Assembly: GCF_034259325.1 (NCBI RefSeq)
Contig: NZ_JAXIVS010000001.1
Span: 496,001-560,000 of the forward strand
Length of the DNA stretch: 64,000 nucleotides
Source: Hyalangium ruber
Lineage (GTDB): Bacteria; Myxococcota; Myxococcia; Myxococcales; Myxococcaceae
Reading direction: 5' to 3'
Below, in pieces: positions 23,338 to 27,178 of this stretch. The notes under the pieces were generated by a model. The model saw nothing but the letters and a program-made list of their open reading frames with translations. It was not told where the DNA came from and made no database searches. Both the position numbers and the translations under genes were made by a program. Position 1 is the first letter of the stretch. Every line of letters begins with the position of its first letter.

Positions 23338-24093
23338 TCAAAACTCGAAGGTGTCGCCCAGCTCCAGGATGTTCACTGGCAGTTCAGCCAGCTCGCGCTT
23401 GAGCTGGCTCACGAAGGCCGGCTTGAGGTGGTAGAGCAGCACATCCGTGCCGTTGCGCTCGAACTTGGTCAGCTCCGACTGGAGCGTGCGGGGCGTAAGG
23501 TGCCCAGACAGGTCCGCCAGCTGCTGCAACGCGTTCGGGAAGCTCGTCTCCAGCAGCAGCGCCTTGAGGTTCTTGGCCTGGTTGAGCGCCTTCCAGAGCT
23601 TTTCCGTGGGGCCCGTGTCACCGCTCATGGCCAGGGAGGACTGGCCGTTGGAGACGATGAACGCGCAGGACTCCACCGGGTGGCTGACGGGGATCGACTG
23701 CACCGTGTAGCGGCCCACCTGGAAGGTGCTGCCGGCGCGGAACGCCTTGATGCGCAGCACCGGGTCCTTCTTGGTGGGAATGCGGGTGAAGTCCGGCCAC
23801 AGCGCGTTGTTGAACATGTACTCGCGCAGGGAGCGGGCACACTCGCGCGAGGCGTGAATGGTGACGGGCGTGTCACGCCGGCCGATCACCAGGTCGGCCA
23901 GCAGGGGCAGGTCCTTGACGTGGTCGAAGTGGCTGTGGCCGACGAGAATGTCGTCCACCTTACAGAGCTGCTCCAGCGTGAGGGTACTCGTGAGCGCGCC
24001 CGCGTCGAGCGCGAGCACGTCATCCACGAGGAAGCATGTGGTCCGACACGAGGGCAGCTCGCCGCCGTGACAGCCGAGGACGTGCAGCTTCAC
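23338..24093 (-). CDS. Metallo-beta-lactamase-fold hydrolase, class II cAMP phosphodiesterase-like
   Basis: 251 residues. The metal-binding motif is GHSHFDHV (His53, His55, Asp57, His58), close to the HxHLDH signature of class II (PDE1/CpdP-type) cyclic nucleotide phosphodiesterases. Further ligands are in PVSHPVES (His about 160) and SGDTGP, and LSGHLTP provides a late histidine. No signal peptide. The start codon lies 1 bp beyond the stop of a Crp-like regulator gene, and an adenylate cyclase is encoded just upstream of that. The context makes cAMP or cGMP hydrolysis the best guess, though MBL hydrolases are diverse. Confidence 0.78.
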   Translation of the reverse strand: MKLHVLGCHGGELPSCRTTCFLVDDVLALDAGALTSTLTLEQLCKVDDILVGHSHFDHVKDLPLLADLVIGRRDTPVTIHASRECARSLREYMFNNALWPDFTRIPTKKDPVLRIKAFRAGSTFQVGRYTVQSIPVSHPVESCAFIVSNGQSSLAMSGDTGPTEKLWKALNQAKNLKALLLETSFPNALQQLADLSGHLTPRTLQSELTKFERNGTDVLLYHLKPAFVSQLKRELAELPVNILELGDTFEF

Positions 24094-24094
24094 A

Positions 24095-24745
24095 CTAGAG
24101 GTCTCCGAACTTCCACTTCATCTCCAGGTACTGGAGGAAATCGTGCAGCCGGGCCGTGTCATACACGGTCAGTCTGTCACCGCTGCGCTCGATGAGACCG
24201 GCTCGCTCCAGCCGATCGAGCATGTGGCGGATGGCGGGCTCTCCCACGCCGATCTGCCGAGGCAGCTCGCGCACGGGGAAGTCCACCTCGATGCCCTCTT
24301 CCATGGGCCGGCCGCGCGCCTGGCAGAACTGGAGCACCTGATGCACCACGCGGCTGGCGGGGTCGGCCAGCAGCAGATTCTCGATCTGGGCGTCCGCCTC
24401 GGAGAGCCGCTCGGCCAGCTTCTTGATCATCCGGACGGCGATCTCGGAGTTGCCGCGGATCATCGCCTCGAACGTCTTCGGGTCGATGACCAGGAGCTTG
24501 GCGTCCTCGGTGACCGCGGCGGTGGCATTGCGCGGCTTGTTGGAGATGATGGCCATCTCCCCGAAGAACTCGCCCGGCCCCAGCACCGCGAGCACCTTCT
24601 CCACATCCCGGACCTTCTTGGAAATGGAGATACGGCCCGCCTGGACGACGAACATGTCCTTGCCAGGCTCGCCCTCCTGGAAGAGGACCGTGCCCTTGGG
24701 GAACTCCTTGCCGAAACGCTGAAAGAGGGTTTCCTCGGCGCCCAT
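24095..24745 (-). CDS. Crp/Fnr-family cyclic-nucleotide-responsive regulator
   Basis: 216 residues. The cyclic-nucleotide-binding domain (about 8-120) has an intact phosphate-binding cassette of the protein-kinase-A type, FGEMAIISNKPRNATA, with Glu63 and Arg72 for ribose and phosphate, so cAMP binding is expected. A dimerisation helix follows, then a Crp-type winged helix (about 145-205; ELPRQIGVGEPAIRHMLDRLERAGLI). It sits between the adenylate cyclase gene (72-bp gap) and the phosphodiesterase-like gene (1-bp gap), suggesting synthesis, reading and removal of cAMP are encoded together. A dyad in the 72-bp gap may be its own binding site. Confidence 0.88.
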   Translation of the reverse strand: MGAEETLFQRFGKEFPKGTVLFQEGEPGKDMFVVQAGRISISKKVRDVEKVLAVLGPGEFFGEMAIISNKPRNATAAVTEDAKLLVIDPKTFEAMIRGNSEIAVRMIKKLAERLSEADAQIENLLLADPASRVVHQVLQFCQARGRPMEEGIEVDFPVRELPRQIGVGEPAIRHMLDRLERAGLIERSGDRLTVYDTARLHDFLQYLEMKWKFGDL

Positions 24746-24784
24746 CTGAATTCCGAGTCAAGCAGCCCCCATCCCCCGGGTCAA

Positions 24785-24802
24785 ATTTCGCGGGGCCGAA
24801 AT
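24785..24802. promoter_or_regulatory. Dyad ATTTCG-N6-CGAAAT, candidate Crp-like operator
   Basis: A perfect 6-bp inverted repeat with a 6-nt spacer lies in the gap between the adenylate cyclase stop and the Crp-like gene start. The half-site/N6/half-site geometry is that of Crp sites (TGTGA-N6-TCACA), though the sequence differs. A terminator role is a rival reading. Confidence 0.35.
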
Positions 24803-24817
24803 ATCGAGGGTGAGGGC

Positions 24818-27178
24818 CTACTTCGTGGTCGCGGTGAACACCCCATCCCATTCCGGGCCAGGGCGCTTCCAGCGCAGGGTGTTGAGTTCCTCCAGGTAGC
24901 GGAGGCTGGGGCCGTCCTCGGGCCAGAGGGTGAGCACCTCGCGGAAGGAGGCCTCGGCGGCGGTGAAGTCCCGGCCGATGAAGTGCGCCACCCCCGCCTC
25001 GAAGACCTGGATGGCCCGGGCGTTGATGCCGGTGGGCCGCCCCAGCGCGCGCAACTCATAGATGTCAGTCACTGCGCTTTTGCCCACCACGCGCACCACG
25101 CCCAGGCGGCGGGCGGTGACGTGGCCCTGAACCTGGGCGTAGGTGCCCGCGGAGATGATGATCCGGGTGTCATACGTCTTGTTGAGGCCCTCCAGGCGGG
25201 AGCCCAGGTTCACCGCGTCGCCCATCACCGTGTAGTTGAAGCGGTTGGCGGTGCCCATGTGGCCCACGTTCATGGGCCCGCTGTTGATGCCCACGCCGAT
25301 GTCCACCTCGGGCAGGCCGGCCTTGCGCCAGCGCCCGCGCATCTCTCCGAGGCGCTCCAGGAAGCCCAGGGCGGCGCTACAGGCCCGTAGCGCGTGGTCG
25401 GGCTGATCCACCGGCGCGCCCCAAAAGGCCATGATGGCGTCGCCGATGTACTTGTCGAGCGTGCCCCCGTTCTCGAAGACGACGTCGGTCATCGGCGTGA
25501 GGTACTCGTTGACGAAGCCGACGAGCTGCTCGGGCGACAGGCTCTCGGAGAGCGTGGTGAAGCCGCGGATGTCGGAGAAGAGGACGGTGAGCTCCTTGCG
25601 CTCGCCGCCGAGCTTGAGCTTCTCGGGGTGCTCGATCACCTGCTCCATCACGCTGGCGTCCAGGTAGTGCTGGAAGGTCTCGCGCAGCCGCTGCTTCTCC
25701 GCGTCCACGGAGAAGTAGCCGAGGAAGACGACACCGAACACCGAGGCGACGAGGCTCAACAGCGGCAGCACCGTGGCCACCTGAATGCCTCGGGAGAAGA
25801 GGAGCTGATCCACCGCGAGCCAGCCGGCGCCCAACAACACCATGGCGCCCAGCTTCCAGGCGAAGCGGACCCGGGGCAGCAGGCGGGCGAGCAGCAGGGC
25901 CGCGCCGAGCATGAAGAGCATCTCCAGCGGCAGCGCGGCGAGGGGCCGGGTGAGGAAGTCCTGGGAGAGGATGTTGGAGAGGAAGGCGGCGTGGACGTAG
26001 ACGCCGGGCTCCAGCTCGCTGAAGGGGGTAACGCGCTGGTCGAAGTTGCCCACCAGCGTCACGCCCACCAGCACCGCCTTGCCTCGCACCGCCGCCGGGT
26101 CGAAGCGCCCCTCCACCACGTCTGACAGGCTCAGCGTGGGGAACACCTTCGCCGGGCCCGGGTAGTTGACGGGGATGAACGGATCATTGATGGGCACGGG
26201 CACATAGAGGGGCAGCAGCGATCCGTCCGGGCGGCGCAGACGGGCGCCGGTGAGCTGGCGCAGGTCGGCGTCGTACTCCGGCTGCACCTCCGCGCCGAAG
26301 TAGGCCGCCGCGGTCTGGAGCTCCAGCATGGGCAGCAGCCCGCGCGGCCCCTCCAAGAGGGCGAACACCGGCACGCGGCGCACGGCGCCGTCGAAGTCCG
26401 GGGCGAAGTTGAAGTGGCCCAGGCGCTTGCCGGCCTGGACGAACGCCGGCAGCGGCACCTGGATGGAGTGGCCGCGCCAGACGCGCAGCGTGTCAGGGTC
26501 CACCTCGTGGAGGGAGCCCGGCACGCTCCCGGGAAACTGACGCACCAGGTGGCCTGCGAGCATCGGCTCCCGCTCCTGGGCCTGGAGGGCGAACTGCTCC
26601 AGGTCCGTGTCGGGGTAGACGATGACGCCCTGGACGACCTGGGGAGTGCGCGCCAGAGCGGCGGCGAGCGCGGCGTCTCCGCTGTCCACGCTGCGGCCCT
26701 TCAGCTCCTCTCGGAGCGCCAGGAGCGCGGGAGACGGCTCGGACGTCTGCGCGAGCGCGCTGTCGAGCGTCTCCAGCGCATCCGCAAATGCATCGGCGCG
26801 CTCGTCGCGCACCTCATCAGTGAAGGTCATGTCCAGGCCGACAGCGCCCACCCCGGCCTCGCGGAGCTGATCAAGGGCGCGGGCCACGTGCTGGCGCGGC
26901 CACGGCCAGCGGCCAAAGTCCTGGACGCTCTTCTCGTCCACGGCCACCACCACTACGTCCGGGTGGGGCGGGCGCACGCCTCGAATCCGGAACTGCAGGT
27001 CCGTGGCGCGTCCCTCGAAGATGTGCAGGCTACGGAGGATGACATTGTCCCCCGAGCCGCTGCCCACCTGGAGACCGACGGAGGGCGAGCGCTCCACCCA
27101 GGCATGCAAGGCGCAGAACAGGGAGGCGAGCCCGAGGGCGAGCACCTCGAAGCGATGGCGGGAAAGGAACGTTTTCAT
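24818..27178 (-). CDS. CHASE2-domain class III adenylate cyclase
   Basis: 786 residues. The first transmembrane helix (about 8-25) is followed by a large periplasmic CHASE2 sensor (about 35-370; VVVVAVDEKSVQDFGRWPWPR). Three more transmembrane helices (about 385-465) lead to a cytoplasmic class III cyclase domain (about 525-710). Metal-binding Asp536 (FSDIRG) and Asp580 (IGDAIMAFWG) are intact. Lys576 and the Asp in VMGDAVNLGSRLEG fit ATP rather than GTP as substrate. It should make cAMP in response to an envelope signal. The ATG at 27178 is used; the longer frame overlaps the divergent purM promoter. It heads the cAMP cassette. Confidence 0.9.
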   Translation of the reverse strand: MKTFLSRHRFEVLALGLASLFCALHAWVERSPSVGLQVGSGSGDNVILRSLHIFEGRATDLQFRIRGVRPPHPDVVVVAVDEKSVQDFGRWPWPRQHVARALDQLREAGVGAVGLDMTFTDEVRDERADAFADALETLDSALAQTSEPSPALLALREELKGRSVDSGDAALAAALARTPQVVQGVIVYPDTDLEQFALQAQEREPMLAGHLVRQFPGSVPGSLHEVDPDTLRVWRGHSIQVPLPAFVQAGKRLGHFNFAPDFDGAVRRVPVFALLEGPRGLLPMLELQTAAAYFGAEVQPEYDADLRQLTGARLRRPDGSLLPLYVPVPINDPFIPVNYPGPAKVFPTLSLSDVVEGRFDPAAVRGKAVLVGVTLVGNFDQRVTPFSELEPGVYVHAAFLSNILSQDFLTRPLAALPLEMLFMLGAALLLARLLPRVRFAWKLGAMVLLGAGWLAVDQLLFSRGIQVATVLPLLSLVASVFGVVFLGYFSVDAEKQRLRETFQHYLDASVMEQVIEHPEKLKLGGERKELTVLFSDIRGFTTLSESLSPEQLVGFVNEYLTPMTDVVFENGGTLDKYIGDAIMAFWGAPVDQPDHALRACSAALGFLERLGEMRGRWRKAGLPEVDIGVGINSGPMNVGHMGTANRFNYTVMGDAVNLGSRLEGLNKTYDTRIIISAGTYAQVQGHVTARRLGVVRVVGKSAVTDIYELRALGRPTGINARAIQVFEAGVAHFIGRDFTAAEASFREVLTLWPEDGPSLRYLEELNTLRWKRPGPEWDGVFTATTK

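Follow-up and report, generated by a model that had tools for sequence, protein, structure and literature searches.

When an adenylate cyclase, a Crp-like protein and a phosphodiesterase (PDE) lie in order on one strand, do they form a private circuit for a single second messenger? This question is raised by a locus of Hyalangium ruber that lies in a 64,000-nucleotide stretch of DNA (the window; contig NZ_JAXIVS010000001.1, positions 496,001 to 560,000) from a genome of 10.77 Mb. Three genes on the minus strand of the window, spanning 27178-23338, encode a CHASE2 class III cyclase, then a Crp-superfamily protein with a cyclic nucleotide monophosphate (cNMP) domain, then a hydrolase of the metallo-β-lactamase (MBL) fold. 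The original prediction, made from the letters of the window, saw in them a self-contained circuit running from envelope to transcription, which would make, read and remove cyclic AMP (cAMP). The comparisons described here favor another organization, to which we assign a probability of roughly 0.55: a phylum-old cAMP-handling module consisting of an optional CHASE2 cyclase and a separately promoted core pair of sensor and phosphodiesterase.

From sequences and structural models we infer how such a module would work. One unit would be the membrane-bound CHASE2 cyclase, which makes cAMP, presumably on an extracytoplasmic cue. The other would be the sensor-PDE pair, co-transcribed from its own promoter and probably translationally coupled. 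Its cNMP protein would use an intact phosphate-binding cassette to bind cAMP, and its class-II-like MBL enzyme would hydrolyze the nucleotide. The pair would act on the cellular pool of cAMP whichever cyclase supplies it, the local one being an optional source; any of the 30 cyclase-domain matches in the genome could feed that pool. The sensor output would differ from a standard CRP box, being either another DNA sequence, which is most plausible in Myxococcaceae because the recognition helix is conserved there in a form of its own, or a protein contact, for instance on the PDE.

Gene order and loss of the cyclase

Open reading frames (ORFs) and Pfam matches agree with the original prediction on the three genes, their coordinates, order, shared strand and domain calls, as well as on the single base that separates the last two. 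The ORF list holds an alternative GTG start for the cyclase 36 bp upstream, and the MBL gene itself starts with GTG. The features of the locus are as follows.

24818..27178, minus strand: CHASE2 class III adenylate cyclase, 786 aa (PF05226 179 bits, PF00211 80 bits; hydrophobic segments; six catalytic residues conserved among 53 homologues)
25892..27028, minus strand: CHASE2 domain, residues 51-429, predicted extracytoplasmic (Pfam; hydrophobic segments on either side)
25070..25597, minus strand: cyclase catalytic domain, residues 528-703, with D536, K576, D580, T650, N657 and R661 (Pfam; residue conservation)
24756..24784, minus strand: promoter-like element of the crp-like/MBL pair, TTGACC (24784-24779), 17 bp, TTGACT (24761-24756) (comparison of loci)
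24095..24745, minus strand: predicted Crp-superfamily cyclic-nucleotide sensor, 216 aa (cNMP_binding 85 bits; HTH_Crp_2 26 bits, cut-off 27; AlphaFold2 model)
24455..24709, minus strand: cNMP-binding domain with phosphate-binding cassette, residues 13-97 (Pfam; alignment)
24140..24352, minus strand: variant winged helix-turn-helix (wHTH), residues 132-202, without the DNA-reading residues of CRP (alignment; family comparison)
23338..24093, minus strand: predicted class-II-like cyclic nucleotide PDE, MBL fold, 251 aa (PF02112 56 bits; AlphaFold2 model; Foldseek match to yeast PDE1)
23920..23937, minus strand: metal motif HSHFDH, residues 53-58 (H53, H55, D57 and H58 invariant)
23791..23814, minus strand: FN-x3-WPD motif, residues 94-101, in common with yeast PDE1 (alignments; conserved in 80 loci)

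The arrangement is conserved across the phylum. Cyclase, crp-like and MBL genes follow one another in 15 of 20 neighborhoods from deep-branching Myxococcota, 11 times directly and four times with inserted signaling genes. Among the other five, one has a cyclase and MBL gene only, and the rest are without a cyclase or cut by a contig end. As the order is kept in these neighborhoods, the trio is at least as old as the deep-branching lineages. Within the order to which H. ruber belongs, the crp-like gene is found in 101 of 117 genomes and the MBL gene in 101; the two are adjacent in nearly all listed coordinates, with a gap of 0-5 bp or a 4-bp overlap in most loci. Conservation of the trio, which had been suggested as a check, is therefore positive, and the synteny confirms that the three genes belong together.

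The cyclase is the member that disappears. In 27 labeled loci the crp-like gene lies directly beside purM, at a spacing of 106-486 bp and with no cyclase between; loci of this type include a record named Myxococcus xanthus (L027), most Corallococcus, and Archangium. Absence here refers to the locus itself, the genome-wide cyclase search having scored eight candidates per genome. A tree of the sensor and MBL proteins has at least nine changes of cyclase presence, a figure that is the minimum on a quick tree with open forks and long outgroup branches and not an exact count of losses. Since the cyclase is present in the deep branches, repeated loss is the likely direction of change. Whether or not the cyclase is there, loci retain the pocket residues (G/E/R/A) and every MBL ligand to the same degree; cyclase loss has therefore left no visible relaxation in the pair.

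The pair also appears to have its own promoter. Of 89 loci, 71 have a TTGAC between -75 and -25 relative to the start of the crp-like gene, compared with 2.7% of random windows; it is usually followed after about 17 bp by a hexamer of the TAA, GATA or TGACT type; in the window it reads TTGACC-N17-TTGACT (24784-24756). The element is defined by comparison of loci, and a generic consensus promoter scanner did not flag it. Its conservation suggests that transcription of the crp-like/PDE pair is probably separate from that of the cyclase, in keeping with the survival of the pair after cyclase loss. The notion of a self-contained circuit thus gives way to a looser association, given this element, the 30 cyclase-domain matches in the genome, and several losses of the cyclase next to a pair that remained whole.

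Candidate enzymes and ligand pocket

By hydropathy, the cyclase carries an N-terminal hydrophobic segment at residues 10-28 and a C-terminal hydrophobic cluster at about 412-493, which flank the CHASE2 domain. All 53 homologues have its metal-binding aspartates (D536/D580), its ATP-type pair (K576/T650) and R661, and 52 have N657, the single exception having H. The metal and ATP-specificity residues are thus intact, as originally proposed; the enzyme is adenylate-type by sequence and probably makes cAMP. A CHASE2 domain is by itself no guide to the nucleotide, since Cya2 of Synechocystis, which has one, is described as a guanylate cyclase (PMC5995499).

The Crp-like protein contains a phosphate-binding cassette of the PKA/CRP type, G62-E63...R72-N73-A74. 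G62 and E63 are present in all 80 labeled loci and R72 in 79 (G71, E72 and R82 in CRP), a near-invariance that upholds the intact PKA-type cassette of the original prediction. The AlphaFold2 model has a predicted local distance difference test score (pLDDT) of 83, and its best PDB matches are CRP of Mycobacterium tuberculosis. The protein probably senses cAMP. In Escherichia coli CRP, T127/S128 of the C-helix couple cAMP to the DNA-binding conformation, and the pair is TT in Clr (PMC10127613). This pair is absent from the window protein, which has A117/D118 according to a gapless alignment with M. tuberculosis CRP read against E. coli CRP; A occupies the first position in 78 of 80 loci and D or N the second in all 80.

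The hydrolase is the only PF02112 (PDEase_II) match in the genome, scoring well above the cut-off of 23.7 bits, and 31 of 34 members of its family match the same model. Its metal ligands H53, H55, D57, H58, H138, D159 and H222 are invariant (HxHxDH, H, D, H). The strict class II signature HxHLDH is replaced by HSHFDH in the window protein and most relatives. The window protein is best labeled class-II-like, and its score against NF041851 (atypical class II) is 41 bits, with a cut-off of 400. Alignments with yeast PDE1 have FN-x3-WPD, E-x-S-x-P...GHL(T/S)P, the metal ligands and a C-terminal H-x-K in common. FN-x3-WPD is not present in YhfI and BA1088, as aligned with the MBL protein, and sequence motifs of this kind do separate PDE1-like proteins from these two. 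The AlphaFold2 model (pLDDT 97) has yeast PDE1 as its first PDB match by Foldseek (4OJV; TMq 0.83), and VIA-align pairs the two with a Z of 28.0 and a root-mean-square deviation of 2.2 over 246 residues at 26% identity. Residues and models together support both the predicted making and the predicted removing function, and the MBL enzyme probably destroys cAMP.

Sensor output and competing explanations

The step 'to transcription' in the original prediction fares less well. Although the sensor pocket has support, the protein has neither T127/S128 nor the DNA-reading residues of CRP, and conservation of the wHTH is weak. Its HTH_Crp_2 score lies around the cut-off (28 bits in the whole-genome search); the original prediction mentions neither this borderline score nor the missing DNA-reading residues. 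R180, E181 and R185 of CRP are replaced by E169, P170 and H174 in the window protein; across the aligned family, R is found at the first of these positions in one sequence and at the third in none. All 30 invariant family columns fall within residues 21-121. For G007, the most distant comparison that has a control, the Crp-like proteins are 66% identical in the sensor part and 23% in the C-terminal part; the control, the canonical Crp of the genome (recognition helix TRESANKWL), gives 42% and 34% against G007. The winged helix is deleted in L057 and L062, where the shortened crp-like gene nevertheless has a 4-bp overlap with the MBL start, and it is damaged in L069. A transcription output is consequently doubtful. 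Myxococcaceae conserve the recognition helix in their own form, GEPA[IV]R, and the wHTH fold is predicted at a pLDDT near 90. Since the helix is conserved and the model folds well, the window protein may possess a new DNA specificity.

These observations bear on how closely the three genes cooperate. Were the circuit a dedicated one, the local cyclase would feed a local Crp-like transcription factor that regulates genes, and the local PDE would end the signal. The order kept across the phylum agrees with this scheme, as do the well-predicted wHTH, the helix of Myxococcaceae and the 20 of 26 family members that still match HTH_Crp_2 at E 0.01. The scheme is at odds with repeated cyclase loss beside an unchanged pair, the separate promoter-like element, the missing DNA-reading residues, and a wHTH that drifts more than that of canonical Crp or is deleted, and we consider it unlikely. 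A second idea places the Crp-like protein outside transcription in most of the phylum, as a sensor subunit that tunes the PDE by direct contact while its DNA-binding domain decays or is deleted. This proposal is tentative and has perhaps little better than a one-in-five prospect; if true, a PDE with a Crp-like sensor subunit would be a bacterial counterpart of the regulated cAMP phosphodiesterases. At the other extreme, a genome with 30 cyclase-domain and 26 cNMP-domain matches might bring such genes together by chance. On the assumption of about 9000 genes, among them 22 cNMP genes, the chance of this upstream order in one genome is roughly 8e-6, and the same order is met again throughout the phylum; chance neighbors are rejected by this synteny as exceedingly improbable.

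The remaining alternative concerns the hydrolase, which could act on another phosphodiester, such as a 2′,3′-cNMP, an RNA end or a different metabolite, and would then insulate or salvage and not end a cAMP signal. RNase Z, PhnP and YhfI have the same fold as its model, at Z scores that tie or come close, Sinorhizobium meliloti SpdA offers a precedent (PMC4222275), and a homologue in a Coatesbacteria contig stands directly next to accD. We nonetheless judge this reading improbable, given the FN-x3-WPD and GHLxP motifs common to the MBL protein and yeast PDE1 and the phylum-wide adjacency to a cNMP sensor and cyclase. Several findings do weigh against the cAMP-handling module as we propose it. 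For the MBL model, VIA-align ranks BA1088, YhfI and RNase Z level with PDE1, so the fold alone does not fix the substrate, and fold comparison was rejected as proof of it. Adjacency is no proof either, because the predicted PDE at the S. meliloti cyclase-Crp locus had no detectable 3′,5′-cAMP activity and acts on 2′,3′-cNMP (PMC4222275). With A117/D118 where CRP has T127/S128, the Crp-like protein may bind another ligand or no ligand at all. Finally, some genomes of the order keep the crp-like gene but have no MBL gene, which shows that the pair is not obligatory.

Related systems, neighboring genes and upstream palindromes

The nearest described system is cyaD1-clr-smc02178-spdA of S. meliloti (PMC4222275, PMC5498481), where the genes for a receptor-type adenylate cyclase (CyaD1 has a CHASE2 domain), for a cAMP receptor of the Crp family and for a predicted PDE likewise share one locus; that genome, too, has many cyclases. 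Its PDE is a class III metallophosphoesterase that acts on 2′,3′-cNMP, whereas that of the window has the MBL fold, matches PF02112 and is class-II-like. Clr is a proven DNA-binding activator with TT in its C-helix, unlike the window receptor, which has A/D and no canonical reading helix, and in the window the receptor and PDE genes lie 1 bp apart. The CRP/GlxR-type cAMP receptors of E. coli and M. tuberculosis share the cNMP fold and phosphate cassette and provide the best structural matches, but the window protein has A/D for T127/S128 and E/P/H for R180/E181/R185.

Class II PDEs are described as a group known chiefly from unicellular eukaryotes (PMC9293780). Yeast PDE1 and its class (PF02112; 4OJV) have the MBL fold, HxHxDH, FN-x3-WPD and GHLxP in common with the window protein, which differs in HSHFDH for HxHLDH, in length (251 versus 369 residues) and in an identity of about 20-26%. 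The atypical class II enzymes Rv1339/YhfI/CpdA (PMC9293780) also have the MBL fold and HxHxDH, and YhfI and BA1088 fit the model equally with PDE1; however, these two are without FN-x3-WPD, and the window protein falls far below the NF041851 cut-off. PdeA and PdeB of M. xanthus are known myxobacterial cAMP phosphodiesterases (cited in PMC2887360, PMC4222275), but are discussed as class III metallophosphoesterases and not as MBL-fold enzymes.

If the activities hold, the locus would combine cAMP synthesis, sensing and removal with a class-II-type PDE, phylum-wide in social, predatory bacteria. In the model myxobacterium M. xanthus the cyclase is missing at the locus, so the arrangement is invisible there. 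The locus also constitutes a test case of a Crp-family protein that changes or loses its DNA output while its ligand pocket is kept.

In the window, purM lies upstream of the trio on the opposite strand, and accD, folC, an alpha/beta hydrolase gene and an AMIN-type gene lie downstream on the same strand (names read from translations). In L147 and L148, from one genus of the order, the crp-like gene stands between purM and accD with no MBL gene there. A GAF-HD gene lies between the cyclase and crp-like genes in L127, L130, L134 and L136, all from one Myxococcota group; L134 and L136 have a TPR-type gene there as well, that of L134 with two cNMP-like stretches.

A palindrome, ATTTCG-N6-CGAAAT, is found at 24785-24802, beside the -35-like element of the crp-like gene. 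It was considered as a conserved Crp operator and rejected, being absent in the closest relative (L015) and in M. xanthus. Some Corallococcus have a geometrical parallel, ATATCG-N6-CGATAT, and the number of such palindromes does not clearly exceed that in shuffled sequences. An exact CRP-type palindrome, GTGA-N6-TCAC, occurs within 250 bp before the crp-like gene in 11 loci (L056, L057, L062, L066-L069, L072, L146, L151 and L154), where 0.9 are predicted from the rate in the remaining loci; these loci are related and so not independent, and the window has no such site. Because the local Crp-like protein is without the residues to read GTGA-N6-TCAC, another Crp may control the pair in these loci.

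MBL homologues in betaproteobacteria (L073, L075, L077) adjoin a GAF-HD (HD_5) gene. In a Candidatus Coatesbacteria contig (L076:280-2018, with 279 bp upstream covered), a homologue lies directly before accD, as downstream of the window trio. In L075 (3409-8245) the homologue also stands beside a CHASE2 cyclase of the same build, a separate association of a class-II-like PDE with a CHASE2 cyclase.

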